64,000 nt of DNA, from the NCBI RefSeq assembly GCF_004210215.2, contig NZ_CP067394.1, positions 1,612,001 to 1,676,000 on the forward strand. Reading direction: 5' to 3'. Within the stretch, counting starts at the first letter, position 1, and every line of letters starts with the position of its first letter. Positions 5,466-13,599 of the stretch are shown in pieces. Made by a program: the position numbers and the translations under genes. The notes under the pieces are model-generated. The model made no database searches and was not told the DNA's origin. It saw only the letters and a list, made by a program, of their open reading frames with translations. This DNA is from Cryobacterium sp. SO1. GTDB taxonomy: Bacteria > Actinomycetota > Actinomycetes > Actinomycetales > Microbacteriaceae.

Positions 5466-7448
5466 ATGGATGACGAGCTACTTGGCTCCACCGCACCGAC
5501 GGGAACTCCTCCCGCCGGCCCGAATCTCCACGACTGGAACACCGCTCTGGCCGCTCCGGCGCCGGATGTCACTGGGCTGGATCATGCGGGGCTGGATCAT
5601 GCGGGGCTGGATCATGCGGGCCCGGATGCTGCCAACCTAGGCGGCGCCACCGACGCCGAGCCAGGCGTTGAGGCCGGCGGGCTGTGCAACCCTGAGTCCG
5701 GTGCCGACGCCGGCAGGCCGGGCCGCACTCGTGCTCATGGGTCGCGGGGCACTCATCCCGGTCAGCCGCGGAGTGGCCCGAGCGTGGGGCAGCCCGTGTG
5801 GCGGGATCCGGCGGAGCTTCCCGGGGTTCAACATGCTCACACGGGTGCGTTCGGTGACAAACTCCGGGTCCTCGAAGACGCCGCGGGGATGGTGCAGGCC
5901 GTGCTGGCGTCGATCGACCTGGACGCTCTCAGCGACGCGGAGGTGGTGGCGTTCACCCAGATGGTCGAACACGCCGGGCGTCCCGTGGACGCGGCGCGGA
6001 TCGGTGCGGCGACCGTGGTCGGCTACCGGTCCCGGCCCGGGCTGGGCCGGGACTCGATGGCCTGGCGGTTGGGCGCGTCACACCAAAACGACCTGCTCAC
6101 CCGGCTGACCCTCGCGTCACGGCAGGAGATGAAACGGCGCCTGGCGTTGGGCGAGAAGGTCGCCCCGAGAGTCCTGGGCGGTCAGGTCCTCGAGCCGGAA
6201 TTCCCCGCGGTCGCCGCCGCGCTCACAGCCGGCGAACTCGGGGTAGATGCAGCGGAGGCCATCGTGAAAGGGCTGACCGACTACAAGGTGCACGGCCGCT
6301 TCGACGCCGACCAGGCCGACGTCGAATCCGCCGAGATCACCCTCGTCGAACGGGCCACCGGGTCGGTCTTCGACCGCATCCCCGGCCCTGGCTACCCGAA
6401 CACCGGGACGGACTCAGGCCCGGACACCGATACAGGCACGGGCACCGGCACAGGCACCGGCACAGGCACAGGCACAGGCACCGACGCTGAGTCCGGCGCT
6501 GATGGTTACCGCACCGGGTTCACCGGTCCGATCCGCCGGCTCCGTGACTCCGACGGGTTCACCTACCCGGCCGATGACCTCCGACCCCTGGCCGTTCGGA
6601 TGCAAGCGCTGCTCAACCCCGACGGGCTCGCCCCGAACGAGACCACCCTCGAAGCCAGATCGACCCTCTCGTTCGGTGAGCTCACCCGGGGCCTCCACCC
6701 GCTCCGCGGTGGCGTGACGCCGGAGTTGAAGGGTGTGATCCAGAACCTGTTCAACACCTTCCAATCCGCCCGCTCCGCACCCGCCTTCCCCTCCGCCGAG
6801 GAACAACGGCGCATCGAGGCCGGAGAGTTGGTGCCGGGCGAGCTGATCGACGAACGCACCGGCGGCGAAAAGCGCGCCGACATCCTCCGCGGCATCCTGG
6901 TCCAGGTCGCCCAAGACCCCCGCACCCCCACCATGGGCGGCATGCCACCCACCGTGATGGTGCACGTGAACGCGGCCGACCTGCTCAAGCAGGCCGGGGT
7001 GGGCTGGATCGACGGGGTCGACGGGCCGATCTCGATGAGAACCATCACCCAGATGATCGACAACGGCGGCTTCCAACCCATCTTCTTCGGCAGCACCGGC
7101 GCCGTCCTCGGCCTGGGCAGCAAGGCCCGCTGTTTCAGCCCGATGCAACGCAAAATGATCACCGCCAGAGACGGCGGCTGCATCATCCCGGGCTGCGACT
7201 GCCCACCCCAATGGACCGAAGTGCACCACGTCACCCCCTGGCAAACCGGCGGCAAAACCACCGTGTCCAACGGGGTGCTGCTCTGCTGGTACCACCACCA
7301 CACCATCACCACCGCCGGATGGAAGATCCGGATGGTCGCCGGGCTACCCCAGGTGAAAGCACCACTCTGGATCGACCCGACCGGGAAATGGCGCACACCC
7401 GAAAAACACCGCGCCCACGACCCCGAAACCCGACGGCAGGACGAGTAG
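5466..7448 (+). CDS. DUF222/13E12-family HNH endonuclease-like protein
   Basis: The 660-residue protein has an N-terminal low-complexity region containing three GLDHA-type pentapeptides, a long helical DUF222 (13E12 repeat family) region, a second low-complexity tract of GT dipeptides near residues 318-335, and a C-terminal HNH nuclease domain: CIIPGCDCPPQWTEVHHV (Cys pair and HH), then SNGVLLCWYHHHTI. These proteins are numerous in Microbacteriaceae and mycobacteria; their role is unknown, with mobile-element or DNA-processing ideas in circulation. The start is just after a TTGACA/palindrome promoter candidate. The tandem DNA repeats inside the gene suggest slippage-driven length variation. 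Confidence 0.9.
   Translation: MDDELLGSTAPTGTPPAGPNLHDWNTALAAPAPDVTGLDHAGLDHAGLDHAGPDAANLGGATDAEPGVEAGGLCNPESGADAGRPGRTRAHGSRGTHPGQPRSGPSVGQPVWRDPAELPGVQHAHTGAFGDKLRVLEDAAGMVQAVLASIDLDALSDAEVVAFTQMVEHAGRPVDAARIGAATVVGYRSRPGLGRDSMAWRLGASHQNDLLTRLTLASRQEMKRRLALGEKVAPRVLGGQVLEPEFPAVAAALTAGELGVDAAEAIVKGLTDYKVHGRFDADQADVESAEITLVERATGSVFDRIPGPGYPNTGTDSGPDTDTGTGTGTGTGTGTGTGTDAESGADGYRTGFTGPIRRLRDSDGFTYPADDLRPLAVRMQALLNPDGLAPNETTLEARSTLSFGELTRGLHPLRGGVTPELKGVIQNLFNTFQSARSAPAFPSAEEQRRIEAGELVPGELIDERTGGEKRADILRGILVQVAQDPRTPTMGGMPPTVMVHVNAADLLKQAGVGWIDGVDGPISMRTITQMIDNGGFQPIFFGSTGAVLGLGSKARCFSPMQRKMITARDGGCIIPGCDCPPQWTEVHHVTPWQTGGKTTVSNGVLLCWYHHHTITTAGWKIRMVAGLPQVKAPLWIDPTGKWRTPEKHRAHDPETRRQDE
5574..5618 (+). 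repeat. Three 15-bp tandem repeats inside the HNH gene
   Basis: GGGCTGGATCATGCG is repeated three times without interruption, in frame, giving the GLDHA pentapeptides. A fourth, diverged unit follows. Being a multiple of three, it can change copy number without breaking the reading frame. Confidence 0.9.
6431..6480 (+). repeat. Six-base microsatellite inside the HNH gene
   Basis: A run of GGCACA/GGCACC/GGCACG hexamers encodes alternating Gly-Thr. It separates the DUF222 region from the second conserved half and can expand or shrink in frame. Confidence 0.85.
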
Positions 7449-7468
7449 ACCGGCGGTGAGGGCGGGTG

Positions 7469-7546
7469 GACCCGATGGCAAGACCCGATGGCAAGACCCG
7501 ATGGCTGGACCCGATGGCTGGACCCGATGGCTGGACCCGATGGCAC
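7469..7546 (+). repeat. Six 13-bp tandem repeats after the HNH gene
   Basis: GACCCGATGGCAA (two copies), GACCCGATGGCTG (three copies) and a final GACCCGATGGCAC are head-to-tail from 20 bases after the HNH stop. There is no spacer variation, so it is not CRISPR-like. Between 7547 and 7726 I see no gene, only the leader of the next cassette. Confidence 0.9.
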
Positions 7547-7726
7547 TTCGAGTAGACCCGCCAGATCGGTACCTGAGGTTCCGCTGCTCCCTGGGCGGTT
7601 TCGGGGCCGCCAGAGGGCATTTTCGGCTGGAGTATTTCGGGCTGGAGTACTGCCATCCGGGCCGCCCGCGTCGTACTATCGCCTTGGGTGTCAGCTGACG
7701 CCCGGTTACGGCTACGGAGGTACGCA

Positions 7727-7981
7727 GTGGGCATCAATGACGACGACATCACCACATCCGGCGCGGATTCGAACGAGGGCACTGCCGACGGTGGTGCCAA
7801 CCAGGCAGGCCACGACGGCGGTGCGGACGGCACCGCGGACGCCGGCGAGGGCACCGCTGACGGCGGCGCGAACCCGGCTGGCCACGACGGCGGTGCCGAT
7901 GGCTCCGCCTCGAGTGAGGGCACCGCAGACGGCGGCGCCAACCCCGAAGGCCACGACGGCGGCGCCGACGGAACTGCCTGA
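7727..7981 (+). CDS. Small acidic Gly/Asp/His peptide with three 19-residue repeats (putative precursor or substrate peptide)
   Basis: Starting at a GTG with a GGAGG ribosome-binding site six bases upstream, the 84-residue product reads MGINDDDITT followed by three near-identical units: residues 17-35, 41-59 and 64-82, each like EGTADGGANPAGHDGGADG. Each unit holds one Asn, one His and several Asp residues in a Gly/Ala background; there are no Cys, aromatic or hydrophobic stretches. The N-terminal DDDITT segment is distinct from the repeats, a leader-plus-repeated-core arrangement. I think similar actinobacterial peptides have been labelled BatC in databases, but I am not certain. The stop TGA overlaps the ATG of the oxygenase gene by one base, so the two are translationally coupled. 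A role as the oxygenase substrate is inference. Confidence 0.75.
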   Translation: MGINDDDITTSGADSNEGTADGGANQAGHDGGADGTADAGEGTADGGANPAGHDGGADGSASSEGTADGGANPEGHDGGADGTA

Positions 7982-9249
7982 TGACGAGCGAGGGGCGCGG
8001 GACGAGAGATCGTCCCGCGCTCGCGCGCTTGCTGGCGGTATCCCCGGATGCTTTCGCCGGAGAGTACTGGGATCGTCAGCCGCTCTTCACCCGAGCGGCC
8101 GCCCTGCCAAGCCACTTCGATGACCTGTTCACCGCCGAGGCCGTCGACGAGCTCGTCACCCACCGCGGCCTGCGCACACCGTTCGTGCGCATGGCGCGGG
8201 AAGGCAACGTGCTTGACCCCGGCCGCTACACGGCACCGGGCGGAATCGGCGCGGAGATCGGCGACCAGGTCAGCGGCGACAAGGTGCTCGACGAGTTCTC
8301 CGGCGGAGCCACGCTGGTGCTCCAGGGGCTGCACCGCACCTGGCCGTCGTTGGCCGACTTCACCAGGCAACTCATCACAGACCTCGGCCATCCCGTTCAG
8401 GTGAACGCCTACATCACGCCGGCTTCCGCCCGCGGCTTCGATCCGCACTATGACGTGCACGATGTCTTCGTTCTCCAGATCGCAGGGGAGAAGCGCTGGC
8501 GCATTCACCCGCCGGTGCACCCACAGCCGCTCCGCGACCAACCGTGGAGCGATCATCGGCGCGCCGTGGAACTGCAGTCGCAGGGCGACCCGGCCATCGA
8601 CGAGGTCTTCAGGCCGGGCGACGTTCTCTACCTGCCGAGGGGCTGGATCCACTCGGCAACCGCGCTCGGTGGCACCTCGATCCACCTCACCCTCGGCGTC
8701 GCCGCCCTCACCCGCCACGACGTGCTGCGCGAGGCCGTCGCCCAGGCCACGGCCGACACCGGCCTGCGCAGCGCCCTTCCGCTCGGCATCGACCTCACGG
8801 ATGCGGCGACCGTCGCCGCCCTGCTGGCCGACGTCGTGCACTCCCTGGCCCGCTACACGGCCAACGACGATACCGATGACGGCAACGCGGCCCAAGCGCT
8901 GGCCTACGCTCAGGAAGTGTCCGGGCGGCTGGCCCGCCGGGTGCGGCCCGGTACCGAACCGATCGCACCCCTGGCGACGGCCGCCGCCGCCGCCGCACTG
9001 CACGAGGTCACCACGGTGAGCCTCCGCCGGGGACTCGACGCCCGGCTGCGGCCGGGTCTGGACCGGGCCGAGGTCGCGCTCCTGCTGCCGGGCAAGACGG
9101 TGACGCTACCCGCGGAGGCCACCGACGCCCTGACCCAGATTCTCACCGGGCACACCGTGCAGGCCGGCGACCTGGCCGGCCTGGACCCGGCCTCATCTCT
9201 CGTGGTCGCCCGGCGCCTGGTGCGCGAGGGTGTTCTGGTCGTGCGGTGA
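7981..9249 (+). CDS. JmjC/cupin-4-like Fe(II)/2-oxoglutarate oxygenase
   Basis: The 422-residue protein matches the cupin-4/JmjC fold of ribosomal oxygenases such as YcfD/RoxA. It starts with the helical segment that ends AFAGEYWDRQPLF, and the double-stranded beta-helix carries the iron ligands: HYDVHD (HxD) near residue 158 and the distal His in GDVLYLPRGWIHSATA near residue 223. NAYITPASARGFDPH precedes the first ligands, as in the family. Characterised members hydroxylate Arg, His or Asn side chains of proteins. A C-terminal winged-helix-like region of about 150 residues follows. It is the middle gene of a coupled trio: one-base overlap with the repeat peptide upstream and GTGA overlap with the ferredoxin-like gene downstream. 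This makes the peptide a natural candidate substrate. Confidence 0.85.
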   Translation: MTSEGRGTRDRPALARLLAVSPDAFAGEYWDRQPLFTRAAALPSHFDDLFTAEAVDELVTHRGLRTPFVRMAREGNVLDPGRYTAPGGIGAEIGDQVSGDKVLDEFSGGATLVLQGLHRTWPSLADFTRQLITDLGHPVQVNAYITPASARGFDPHYDVHDVFVLQIAGEKRWRIHPPVHPQPLRDQPWSDHRRAVELQSQGDPAIDEVFRPGDVLYLPRGWIHSATALGGTSIHLTLGVAALTRHDVLREAVAQATADTGLRSALPLGIDLTDAATVAALLADVVHSLARYTANDDTDDGNAAQALAYAQEVSGRLARRVRPGTEPIAPLATAAAAAALHEVTTVSLRRGLDARLRPGLDRAEVALLLPGKTVTLPAEATDALTQILTGHTVQAGDLAGLDPASSLVVARRLVREGVLVVR

Positions 9250-10193
9250 GCCTGCCCGACCTGCCCAACGCGCACAGCGCAGCTCCCGGCTGGCTGCCGT
9301 GCAGTGATCGCTCGCTGGAACGCGGCGATCCCCTCCTGGGCACGGCCGGTTACGGCGAACGGTGGTTCCTCGTCGAGATCGACGGGGCCTGGGGCGCGCA
9401 CGCCTTCCTGCAGTCGCCGCTGGACCCCGCGCTTGCCAGGGCCCTGGTCACCCGGATCGAATCCGCCGGCATCCGCCCCCTCGCCATCCGTCGCACGGGA
9501 CGCACCTCGCTGCAGCGCCGTGCCCAGACCGAGTGGCGCTGGGCGGCCGTGGATGCCAGGGTCGGCCATGAGAGAGTGCACTGGGGAGCGGTGTCCGACC
9601 CCGCCGAGCTGATGCGGGTGCCGCTGGACGGGTCGAGCGGCACGCCGTCCACCGAGCCGCTCATCTGCGTGTGCACGCACGCCAGGCACGACCAGTGCTG
9701 CGCCGTGAAGGGGCGCCCGGTGGTCACCGCCCTCGCCGAGGTGTACCCGGCCGGCACCTGGGAGTGCTCGCACCTCGGTGGCGACAGGTTCGCGGCCACC
9801 ATGATCCTGTTCCCGCACGGGCTGTACTACGGTCGGGTGAGCGGTGCCGAGGCCCCCGGCCTGGTCGAGGCCTTCCTCCACGGCCGCATCGAACCGCGCT
9901 TCTTCCGAGGCCGCAGTTCGCTGCCCAACGTGGTGCAGGCGGCGGCCGCCTTCGCCCGCGCCAATCGGGGCGACAACCACATCGACGCCTTCGAATACGA
10001 GTCCTGGACAGAGTCAGGGGGAGTGCACACCGTGTGCTTCAGGCACGGCGGAGAACACGGCGGTGAACACGACGGAGAACACCTTGTGGTGCGGCTCGGC
10101 GAGAGCCGGTCGGAGCCACTTCTCAGCACCTGCGCGGCCAGCAGCGCCCAGCCGGTTCGGGAGTTCGAACTGCTCTCGATATCTGCCCGGTGA
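9246..10193 (+). CDS. Sucrase/ferredoxin-like thioredoxin-fold protein, candidate [2Fe-2S] electron carrier
   Basis: The 315-residue product carries the Suc_Fer-like signature: CVCTHARHDQCCAVKGRPV followed by WECSHLGGDRFAATMILFPHG and YYGR. Known relatives have a thioredoxin-like ferredoxin fold and are thought to bind a [2Fe-2S] cluster through such cysteines. After the core there is a His/Glu/Gly-rich stretch (HGGEHGGEHDGEH) that may bind metal. It starts at a GTG overlapping the oxygenase stop (GTGA), so it is the third member of the cassette and may supply electrons or keep the oxygenase iron reduced (inference). The name sucrase is historical; no glycosidase motif is seen. Confidence 0.8.
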   Translation: MSLPDLPNAHSAAPGWLPCSDRSLERGDPLLGTAGYGERWFLVEIDGAWGAHAFLQSPLDPALARALVTRIESAGIRPLAIRRTGRTSLQRRAQTEWRWAAVDARVGHERVHWGAVSDPAELMRVPLDGSSGTPSTEPLICVCTHARHDQCCAVKGRPVVTALAEVYPAGTWECSHLGGDRFAATMILFPHGLYYGRVSGAEAPGLVEAFLHGRIEPRFFRGRSSLPNVVQAAAAFARANRGDNHIDAFEYESWTESGGVHTVCFRHGGEHGGEHDGEHLVVRLGESRSEPLLSTCAASSAQPVREFELLSISAR

Positions 10194-10232: not shown

Positions 10233-10335
10233 GTTGGCGGACTCGCTCGAAGGGTAGTGTTCAGAACAGAGGGCGAACCACCGGCACCGTGGCATTAGCT
10301 GGTACCTCGTGGTCCTGCTCTCGTGGCCCGACTGG

Positions 10336-10350
10336 TGGGTGAAACACCCA
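10336..10350 (+). promoter_or_regulatory. Palindrome TGGGTGAAACACCCA in the pfl leader
   Basis: Six-base arms flank AAA 42 bases before the pflB start; outer bases GAC/GTC can extend the stem past a bulge. The core GGTGAAACACC recurs upstream of the allantoinase gene (47299-47309). It could be an RNA hairpin in the leader or an operator for pfl expression. Confidence 0.35.
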
Positions 10351-10391
10351 GTCAGCGGGAAAGCCTCGATCCTACAAGGAGAGCACACCAT

Positions 10392-12659
10392 ATGACCGTC
10401 ACAGATGGCATCAGAAGCGACCAGCACGGTCTCGCAGAAACCGGCCCGGCCGAATTCGTCAGCGGCCCGTGGCAGGACTCGATCAACCTGCGCGACTTCA
10501 TCCAGCGCAACTACACGCCGTACCTCGGCGACGCCAGCTTCCTCGCCGGCGCCACCGAGCGCACCACCGGAATCTGGGCAAAGCTGTCCGCGATGTTCCC
10601 GGTCGAGCGCGAAAAGGGCGTCTACGACATCGATGCGACCACCCCGTCGTCTATCACCGCGCACAAGCCCGGCTACATCGACAAGGACAACGAGGTCATC
10701 GTCGGCCTCCAGACCGACGCGCCGCTCAAGCGCGCGATCATGCCCTTCGGCGGCTGGCGCATGGTCGCCACCTCGCTCGAGACCTACGGCTACCCGGTGT
10801 CGCCCGAGCTCGAGACAATCTTCACCGACTATCGCAAGACCCACAACACCGCCGTCTTCGACGTCTACCCTCCCGGCGTGCGCCGTGCGCGCAGCAGCCA
10901 CCTGATCACGGGCCTGCCGGATGCCTACGGCCGCGGCCGCATCATCGGTGACTACCGTCGTGTTGCCCTGTACGGCGTCGACGCCCTGATCGTCGGCAAG
11001 AAGAACGACCGCGCCGAGCTGGACATGGAGCCCTCGACCGAGGACATCATCCGTGCCCGCGAGGAGAACTCGGAGCAGATCCGGGCCCTCAAGGAGCTCG
11101 TCCAGATGGCCGCCAGCTACGGCTCGGACATCTCCAAGCCCGCCACCACCGCCAAGGAAGCCGTTCAGTGGCTGTACTTCGCGTACCTCGGTGCCGTCAA
11201 GGAGCAGAACGGTGCGGCAATGTCGTTCGGCCGCAACGCGGCCTTCCTCGACGCCTACATCGAGCGCGACCTCGCCGCAGGCACCCTGACCGAAGAAGGC
11301 GCCCAGGAGCTCATCGACGACCTCGTCATCAAGCTGCGCATCGTCCGGTTCCTCCGTACCCCGGAGTACGACGAGATCTTCGCCGGTGACCCCACCTGGG
11401 TCACCGAGTCGCTCGCCGGCATCGGTGAAGACGGTCGCCCGCTGGTGACCAAGACCGCGTTCCGCTTCCTGCAGACCCTGTACAACGTGGGCCCCGCACC
11501 CGAGCCGAACCTGACCGTGCTGTGGAGCGACAAGCTGCCCGAGGGCTTCAAGCGCTTCTGCGCCCAGGTCTCGATCGACACGTCGGCCATCCAGTACGAA
11601 TCCGATGACCTCATCCGCAACGAGATGGGTGACGACGCCGCGATCGCATGCTGCGTCTCCCCGATGCGGGTCGGCAAGCAGATGCAGTTCTTCGGAGCCC
11701 GCGTCAACGCCGTCAAGGCCTTGCTGTACTCGATCAACGGCGGCAAGGACGAGGTGTCCGGCAAGCAGATCGCGCCGGCCACCGCCCCGAACACCGACGA
11801 GATCCTCGACTACGAGACCGTCTTCCCGGCCTACCTCGAGACCCTCGAGTGGCTCGCCGAGACCTACGTCACCGCGCTGAACTGCATCCACTACATGCAC
11901 GACAAGTACGCGTACGAGCGCCTCGAGATGGCACTGCACGACAAGGAAATCATCCGCACCCTGGCCTGCGGCATCGCCGGCCTGAGCGTGGTTGCCGACT
12001 CGCTGTCCGCCATCAAGTACGCCACGGTTCGTCCGGTGCGCGATGAGACCGGTCTGGTTGTCGACTACACCGTCGAGGGCGAGTTCCCCACCTTCGGCAA
12101 CGACGACGACAAGGTCGACGCCATCGCGGTCGACGTCATGGAACGCTTCATGACGATGATCCGCAAGCACCCGACCTACCGGGACGCCATCCACACCCAG
12201 TCGATCCTGACGATCACGTCCAACGTGGTCTACGGCAAGGCCACCGGCAACACGCCCGATGGTCGCCGCAAGGGTGAGCCGTTCGCACCGGGTGCCAACC
12301 CGATGAACGGCCGCGACACGCACGGCATGCTCGCGTCGGCACTCAGTGTCGCCAAGCTCCCGTACAGTGAGGCGCAGGATGGCATCTCGCTGACCAACAC
12401 CGTCGTTCCGAGCGGCCTCGGCCACACCAAGGACGAGCAGATCACCAGCCTGGTCGGCCTGCTCGACGCCTTCACGTCGGCCACCGGCTACCACCTGAAC
12501 GTCAACGTGCTCAACAAAGAGACGCTCGAGGACGCGATGCTGCACCCGGAGAACTACCCGCAGCTGACAATCCGCGTTTCCGGCTATGCCGTGAACTTCG
12601 TTCGCCTCACCCGCGAGCAGCAGATGGATGTCATCAGCCGCACGTTCCACTCGCACTAA
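10392..12659 (+). CDS. pflB: Pyruvate formate-lyase (formate acetyltransferase)
   Basis: The 755-residue protein converts pyruvate and CoA to acetyl-CoA and formate. The active-site cysteine pair is in ACCVSPM (Cys420-Cys421) and the C-terminal glycyl-radical loop RVSGYAVNF carries Gly731, almost the position found in the E. coli enzyme (Gly734). Length and whole-sequence pattern ([39 protein letters not shown]) fit true PflB rather than a diol dehydratase. The ATG at 10392 has AAGGAG ten bases upstream. The activase gene follows 46 bases downstream. The enzyme is oxygen-labile when activated, so its presence predicts fermentative or microaerobic growth capacity. Confidence 0.96.
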
Positions 12660-12681
12660 AGAATCTCCTTAACACATGACC

Positions 12682-12741
12682 GGCAACGCTAGGTAGGACG
12701 AGACAATGACCGCGATCAACCTCGGCTTCCCTAGCGTTGCC
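12682..12741 (+). promoter_or_regulatory. 12-bp inverted repeat enclosing the pflA start
   Basis: GGCAACGCTAGG (12682-12693) and CCTAGCGTTGCC (12730-12741) are perfect complements separated by 36 bases. The loop contains the pflA ribosome-binding region (GGACGAG) and the ATG at 12706, and the right arm is already coding. Folding in the mRNA would enclose the start site and could set the ratio of activase to lyase. Confidence 0.5.
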
Positions 12742-13599
12742 TGTCCTGTAGTCGAACTTTCCGGAGAGCACGTCGACCTGTCGGCGCCCGTCTCCGATGA
12801 CGTCAGCGCCCTCAATGACGCCGACCGCAAGGCCGAGCTGCACACCCTCGAGATGAAGGCGATCCGGGAGGGCACCGTCGCCAGTGTGCATTCCTGGGAG
12901 CTGGTGACCGCCGTTGACGGCCCCGGCACCCGCATGACCCTGTTCCTCTCCGGCTGCCTGTTGCGTTGCCAGTACTGCCACAACCCAGACACCTGGAAGA
13001 TGCGTGACGGCCTCGTCACTCCCATCGAGGAACTCGTCGCCCGGATGACCCGCTACTTGGGTGTCTTCAAGGCCACCAACGGCGGCCTCACCATCTCCGG
13101 CGGCGAACCGCTGATGCAGCCCGCGTTCGTCAAGCGGATGTTCAAGGAGGCGCACGCCCTGGGCGTGCACACCACCCTGGACACCTCCGGCTACCTCGGC
13201 AAGAGCGCCTCGGACGAGATGCTCGACAACATCGACCTCGTCCTGCTCGACGTGAAGTCGGGTCTGCCAGAGACCTACAAGAAGGTCACCGGCCGCGAAC
13301 TCGCGCCCACCATCGCGTTCGGCGACCGTCTCGCCGAGCGCAACATACCGGTCTGGGTGCGCTTTGTGCTGGTGCCCGGGCTCACCGACGCCGTCGACAA
13401 CGTCGAAGCCGTTGTCGACATCGTGAAGAGTTGGCCCAACGTGCAGCGCGTCGAAGTGCTGCCGTTCCACCAGATGGGCGAGGACAAATGGGACCGTCTG
13501 AGCATTCCGTACCCCCTGCACGGCGTGCACCCGCCGGAGAACGACCTGCTGAACCGGGTGCGCGGGCAGTTCGAGGCGCGGGGTCTCACCGTCTTCTAA
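12706..13599 (+). CDS. pflA: Pyruvate formate-lyase activating enzyme (radical SAM)
   Basis: The 297-residue product installs the glycyl radical on PflB. It has the radical SAM cluster motif CLLRCQYC (Cys84, Cys88, Cys91), the SAM-binding GGE (ISGGEPLMQ) and the family sequences VDGPGTR and VLVPGLTD. Compared with E. coli PflA (246 residues) it has an N-terminal extension of about 50 residues. An alternative in-frame ATG at 12853 (MKAIREG) would give the standard length but has a poor ribosome-binding site, so I keep the upstream ATG. It sits 46 bases after pflB, in one operon, and its start lies in the loop of a long inverted repeat. Confidence 0.94.
   Translation: MTAINLGFPSVACPVVELSGEHVDLSAPVSDDVSALNDADRKAELHTLEMKAIREGTVASVHSWELVTAVDGPGTRMTLFLSGCLLRCQYCHNPDTWKMRDGLVTPIEELVARMTRYLGVFKATNGGLTISGGEPLMQPAFVKRMFKEAHALGVHTTLDTSGYLGKSASDEMLDNIDLVLLDVKSGLPETYKKVTGRELAPTIAFGDRLAERNIPVWVRFVLVPGLTDAVDNVEAVVDIVKSWPNVQRVEVLPFHQMGEDKWDRLSIPYPLHGVHPPENDLLNRVRGQFEARGLTVF

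Follow-up and report, generated by a model that had tools for sequence, protein, structure and literature searches.

A candidate RiPP-like operon in Cryobacterium sp. SO1 and other actinobacteria: an Asp-rich repeat peptide paired with a JmjC-type oxygenase

A 64,000-nucleotide stretch of the Cryobacterium sp. SO1 genome (contig NZ_CP067394.1 of assembly GCF_004210215.2, positions 1,612,001 to 1,676,000; hereafter the window) carries at positions 7,727 to 10,193 three overlapping forward-strand genes, encoding a small repetitive peptide, a JmjC-type oxygenase and a Suc_Fer-like protein. The trio may represent an operon akin to those for ribosomally synthesised and post-translationally modified peptides (RiPPs), in which the peptide would be a dedicated substrate hydroxylated by the oxygenase of the next gene, a reading to which we assign a probability of roughly 55%. 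It is built on translational coupling, co-occurrence across genomes, a leader/core anatomy of the peptide, conserved catalytic residues and a model fold of the ribosomal-oxygenase (ROX) type, all taken from sequence, and would extend from these to a substrate relation, a target residue, a redox role for the third protein and a function for the product.

All three open reading frames (ORFs) were confirmed. The peptide gene (7727..7981, forward strand, 84 residues) has a GGAGG ribosome-binding site at 7716..7720, six bases before its GTG start at 7727, and its TGA stop (7979–7981) shares one base with the ATG at 7981 of the oxygenase gene (7981..9249, forward strand, 422 residues). The stop codon of the latter (9247–9249) overlaps the GTG start at 9246 of the Suc_Fer-like gene (9246..10193, forward strand, 315 residues), and these overlaps of one and four bases support the view of an earlier note on this DNA that the three products are made together. 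Its assignment of the second product as a cupin-4/JmjC-type oxygenase is likewise upheld by Pfam matches to JmjC_2 (PF08007, 101.2 bits against a cut-off of 22) and Cupin_8 (PF13621, 35.9 bits against 27.4), with the Fe(II)-binding residues intact. The third gene matches Suc_Fer-like (PF06999) at 73.7 bits (cut-off 34.9), the Pfam search of the peptide matched no family, and an NCBIfam search gave nothing near any family's cut-off.

Peptide and oxygenase are strictly paired. Among 299 genomes at family level, 37 encode a homologue of the oxygenase (E <= 1e-20), 33 of these being close (E < 1e-120), and the codon pattern that encodes GHDGGADG is present in 34, of which 33 are exactly the genomes with the close oxygenase; a reversed-pattern control matched in one of the 299. 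Two apparent cases of a peptide without an oxygenase were rejected: in the 34th genome (G167) the pattern lies inside a long unrelated ORF, with no oxygenase in the surrounding 4 kb or in the genome homologue search, and in G283 a second peptide gene copy (L235, at the end of contig C38, besides the one on C50), either a duplication or an assembly artefact, ends at the contig edge. A scan of named genomes, in which the best 80 of 398 oxygenase relatives were kept, placed the peptide directly upstream of the oxygenase in 79 loci, the contig of the 80th (L142) starting just before the oxygenase. The genera represented include Cryobacterium, Herbiconiux, Leifsonia, Subtercola, Agreia, Agromyces, Curtobacterium, Cellulomonas, Brachybacterium, Rhodococcus and Gordonia, and the closest named oxygenase among these 80, that of C. 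lactosi, is 91% identical.

Wider searches (E <= 1e-15) found relatives in 52 of 297 genomes at order level and 58 of 396 at phylum level. The final set, from which weaker or duplicate matches were left out (for example G872, G914, G932, G811, G817, G906, G842, G831, G754 and G781), comprised 202 oxygenase loci with 183 distinct proteins, including 58 regions fetched by hand; locus counts include related genomes, and distinct-protein counts are therefore used where available. Ranking against an oxygenase profile separated a clade of 193 loci (174 distinct) from an outgroup of nine, at a cut of 210 that was set after seeing the data, between the scores 219, where the peptide is present, and 201, where it is not. 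An Asp-rich small ORF ending at the oxygenase start lies directly upstream of 172 of the 174 distinct clade oxygenases, a count that includes L010, L102 and L133, which the automatic rule overlooked (owing to start choice, a contig edge and a run of N) and which were therefore scored manually; the remaining two, L039 and L142, stand at contig edges with almost no upstream sequence. Such an ORF is present at 0 of 9 outgroup loci and, by the same criterion, at 19 of 1415 random sites, and the association holds down to roughly 35–45% oxygenase identity. The outgroup loci (L193–L195, L225, L229–L233) represent other JmjC_2 subfamilies of the phylum; one genome, G922, has four matches. On a quick tree of 80 representatives that included seven of the nine (L193, a near-copy, and L195, too short, were dropped), four label changes are needed, of which L039 and L142, the rows at contig edges, account for two; the outgroup does not form one side of a branch, and several of its branches are very long and uncertain.

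It is the trio, and not a syntenic block, that is conserved, since four genes flanking it in the window, sought in the best 80 named loci (66 with over 13 kb), recur in only 5, 6, 7 and 7 of them, all Cryobacterium except for a DUF222-type match in L100. A conserved neighbourhood in other genomes was the check that the earlier note had proposed, and the trio is indeed kept while its neighbours change. On mobile elements, 17 pattern matches in viral contigs included none that encodes a relative, and each of the 62 matching plasmid records stayed below 60% identity and short of 80% query coverage.

The anatomy of the peptide is that of a precursor. In the window it consists of the leader-like N-terminus MGINDDDITTSGADSN (7727..7774), followed by three units of the form EGTADGGANxxGHDGGADG[ST]A with short linkers between them (residues 17–37, 41–61 and 64–84; 7775..7837, 7847..7909 and 7916..7978, all on the forward strand). 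The three near-identical units described earlier are thus present, although each has 21 residues rather than 19, at a spacing of 23–24. Across 165 distinct sequences (L010, L102 and L133 left out) four groups can be told apart. Group A (window type, 86 distinct) combines a leader of the [MV]xINDDDITT type with EGxADGG[AS]NPxGHDGGADG[ST]A units; group B (n = 40) has EGPADSGAGxxPGEHDGGADGGA units or long (DGGA)n arrays; group C (n = 9) has MSNLSDDDITTT and then GDADSGDSDATQVDPSGSDPAG; and group D (n = 30) has an LTDEDIETV-type leader followed by DADGTDGDATD or (TDADADS)n-like arrays, with L206 and L224 among the exceptions. In L206 (G852:C21:803600-807800) a peptide of about 155 residues joins a GDDDISS leader to another repeat, ADGTDQGVxGGTYGPRDA, and in L224 (G690:C1:3605200-3608800), where the oxygenase is a distant one, two exact EPTEDDENLDAPGEHSQDTGD copies follow an ITDNDIT leader, with no Suc_Fer gene within the 0.9 kb of downstream sequence. 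One peptide of the family, from Leifsonia poae, carries the database name 'BatC protein'. Most peptides of the window clade have three units (81 of 88 distinct ones, counted with a pattern in which some positions are fixed, an alignment of 77 peptides being the unforced version); this number is not typical of the other groups.

An N-terminal motif of the L/I-x-D-x-D-I/M type is found in 86/86 peptides of group A, 9/9 of group C and 26/30 of group D, and in groups C and D together it was observed in 34 of 39 peptides against 3.7 expected when N-termini were shuffled. Behind this motif the core sequence differs by lineage in the same three groups, and it is this fixing of the N-terminus while each lineage rewrites the core that gives the family its RiPP-precursor look, in line with the short DDDITT leader and repeat core proposed at the outset. 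Among 35 equal-length window-type peptides pN was 0.158 and pS 0.533, and the resulting pN/pS of 0.30 means that the window-type peptide is under purifying selection.

The oxygenase is predicted to be a ROX-type enzyme. Its structure model matches the human His-hydroxylase NO66 along the whole length (by VIA-align comparison covering the best 1000 of the Foldseek ranking), reproducing the JmjC, dimerisation and winged-helix architecture of ROX enzymes. The iron ligands of the HxD...H site (H156, D158, H224) are present in 137/137 sequences, as are the pocket residues N142, Y144, K171 (the likely 2-oxoglutarate (2OG) residue) and G239; in the wider set of 193 loci each of these positions, and H160 as well, is unchanged in 177–192 sequences, the rest being gaps except for one Arg each at N142 and Y144. 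H160 was rejected as a clade marker, since it occurs in 5 of 9 outgroup sequences too, and a JmjC-Suc_Fer gene fusion suspected from ORF offsets was rejected, the long ORFs lying in different frames. At the modelled C-terminus (residues about 345–421; 9013..9243) strands 345–348, 355–358, 364–369 and 372–377 precede helices 378–387 and 403–415. A winged helix is a normal part of ROX enzymes, and here it might serve as a leader-binding site in the manner of a RiPP recognition element (RRE), a leader-binding winged helix in which three strands are followed by three helices.

The identity of the modified residue is where the reading has its closest competitor. The earlier note had looked to His and Asn, and an enzyme that hydroxylates one His (or Asn) in every unit, hence three in a window peptide, with other lineages having switched residue, would agree with columns that are 96–100% conserved in 77 aligned window-type peptides. 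It would also suit the closest solved relatives, NO66 and MINA53, which are His hydroxylases and whose sequences align with the N-x-Y preceding HxD here. However, 27 of the 165 distinct peptides lack both residues (His is found in 128, Asn in 119 and Asp in all 165), the pocket being unchanged whether or not the peptide has His, and His and Asn were accordingly rejected as universal targets. Moreover, passages of PMC9994133 describe the substrate His of NO66 and MINA53 as held by a Tyr and a Ser, and only half of this pair is found: the Tyr is kept (Y144), whereas the Ser (Ser421 of NO66 by count) aligns with the invariant Gly239. His is replaced by N or R in 4 of 254 window-type units, counted with the same partly fixed pattern. 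As His and Asn are both missing from 27 peptides and Asp from none, Asp is the likelier family-wide target; a His- or Asn-directed enzyme, with a switch of residue in other lineages, we regard as unlikely, His being the main alternative within the window clade.

Several observations weigh against a dedicated, hydroxylated precursor. Asp-richness is part of the criterion by which the ORFs were chosen, so that finding it in all peptides says no more than that no readable clade locus lacked such an ORF, and His is kept in 86/86 window-type peptides, the His-holding Tyr persists, and narrow residue selectivity of MINA53 and NO66 is reported in parts of PMC9994133. Just 9 of the 40 group B peptides carry the leader motif. 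The upstream ORFs of L056 and L181 are Asp-rich but non-repetitive, and L204 has only 100 bases upstream, its ORF being cut short. Among ORFs of at least 110 residues in 22 loci, taken with flanks of up to about 6 kb, no peptidase or transporter family recurred in four or more loci, as the earlier note had remarked of the genes adjacent to the trio in the window; what did recur was the oxygenase, the Suc_Fer protein and two opposite-strand ORF sets overlapping their genes that are taken to be spurious. Not every RiPP class needs a locally encoded protease for leader removal, and general proteases might act here. Lastly, 22 of the 193 clade loci lack the Suc_Fer gene, and in five of these the downstream sequence extends for 3 kb or more.

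With the gene lying downstream on the same strand in the other 171 clade loci and in 0 of 9 outgroup loci, peptide and oxygenase are thus best regarded as the core of the system and the Suc_Fer protein as a frequent partner. The proposal that it is a [2Fe-2S] protein is weakened. Aim32-type Suc_Fer proteins bind a [2Fe-2S] cluster by way of the ligand motif CX8CXnHX3H, according to sections of PMC8482512, and the thioredoxin-like [2Fe-2S] proteins Apd1 and Aim32 share with the present protein PF06999, the CX8C and the first His; the motif here, however, reads CX8CXnHX3D. C143, C152 and H176 are invariant in 28 sequences and D180 is found in 90% or more (97% of 172 rows), and cluster ligation is uncertain because Asp180 takes the place of the second His, which leaves a [2Fe-2S] cluster possible but not assured. 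A search of solved structures with this protein returned nothing beyond weak matches to xylanases (E of 0.035 at best), which were disregarded.

Taken as a RiPP-like pathway, the system could work as follows. The oxygenase would hold the N-terminal DDDIxT leader of the peptide, perhaps via its C-terminal winged helix, while the Fe(II)/2OG centre would hydroxylate side chains in the core repeats successively, the product shared across the family being most likely 3-hydroxyaspartate formed from Asp. The Suc_Fer-like protein, where present, would probably supply electrons, for instance by keeping the oxygenase iron reduced, and the outcome would be an acidic, hydroxylated peptide, perhaps able to bind metal, that either remains intracellular or undergoes processing by general proteases. 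A bolder and decidedly tentative extension is that a large family of actinobacterial JmjC proteins, at present called ribosomal oxygenases or cupins, are peptide aspartyl hydroxylases whose action on gene-encoded Asp-repeat precursors yields poly-3-hydroxyaspartyl peptides, which would be a new class of RiPP. In the window clade the three units might then form a three-armed chelator round a single metal ion (Fe(III), for example), and iron redox would fall to the Suc_Fer protein.

It is also conceivable, though less probable than a His- or Asn-directed enzyme, that the oxygenase acts on a ribosomal protein, as the database names of its relatives imply, and that the acidic peptide is a chaperone or escort of that protein, or else a regulator. 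The ROX fold and iron ligands are consistent with this, and acidic peptides are able to shield basic proteins. Against it stand the enzyme's patchy distribution at family level, combined with its strict pairing with the peptide, and the rewriting of the core by lineage behind a fixed N-terminus, which agrees better with a core that is modified. Very improbable is an unmodified peptide acting as metal-binding or iron-delivery partner of the two proteins, as its repeated acidic residues, suggestive of cation binding, and the coupling of its gene to those of an iron enzyme and a possible Fe-S protein might imply, since 2OG oxygenases generally need no dedicated metal chaperone and the upstream regions show no IdeR-type iron box above the level of shuffled sequence (mean best match 9.56 of 19 in 77 loci, against 10.07 in shuffles).

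The surroundings of the trio in the window may be briefly noted. Immediately upstream (5466–7448) lies a gene for a DUF222-HNH protein with a long Asp/Thr/Gly dipeptide-like tract, which adjoins the trio in only 5 of the 80 named loci, and between it and the peptide gene (7468–7545) stand six head-to-tail 13-base units (GGACCCGATGGCA). Directly downstream (10323–13599) are pyruvate formate-lyase-like and activase-like ORFs, named by reading of the ORFs, which accompany the trio in 7 of the 80, all Cryobacterium.

The enzyme resembles the ribosomal oxygenases NO66, MINA53 and YcfD (PF08007) in domain, iron ligands, whole-length model match and C-terminal winged helix; unlike them it is always paired, where the upstream sequence is readable, with a small Asp-rich peptide gene, and it differs from NO66 and MINA53 in having Gly in place of Ser. 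A precedent for JmjC-type hydroxylation of ribosomal precursors, the relation proposed here, is offered by the biphenomycin RiPP clusters, whose enzymes (BpmG/BipG, and the cupin-like PbsQ) hydroxylate ornithine, according to portions of PMC12257519 and PMC12707348. There, hydroxylation follows the action of an MNIO enzyme and an arginase, whereas the present loci show no further recurrent tailoring enzyme and have a core of Asp-rich repeats. Closer in architecture are the RRE-fused JmjC proteins of PMC12710340, PF08007 members with a strands-then-helices winged helix whose bacterial homologues occur in RiPP-like contexts; the parts of that paper available to us describe no Asp-repeat peptide or DDDIxT motif. 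Literature searches confined to open-licence PMC papers yielded no paper recognised as a description of this peptide family, and on our best reading this RiPP-like family is undescribed, with a ROX-type enzyme as its only recurrent tailoring oxygenase and an Asp-rich repeat as its core.

Should the peptide be the substrate, many oxygenase genes would be misnamed. In a profile search in which 6153 of 8000 scored candidates passed E 1e-30, those among the 120 matches listed that bear an organism name are actinobacterial, and many of these 120 are called NO66 or L16 Arg81 hydroxylase, cupin also being used. The family would then constitute an unstudied group of modified peptides across many actinobacteria and a natural case of one fold moving between ribosomal proteins and dedicated peptides. 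It would offer a minimal two- or three-gene system, easily rebuilt in E. coli, in which one oxygenase tailors a repetitive core, and its constant leaders joined to very different cores would be useful for engineering hydroxylated, possibly metal-binding peptides.

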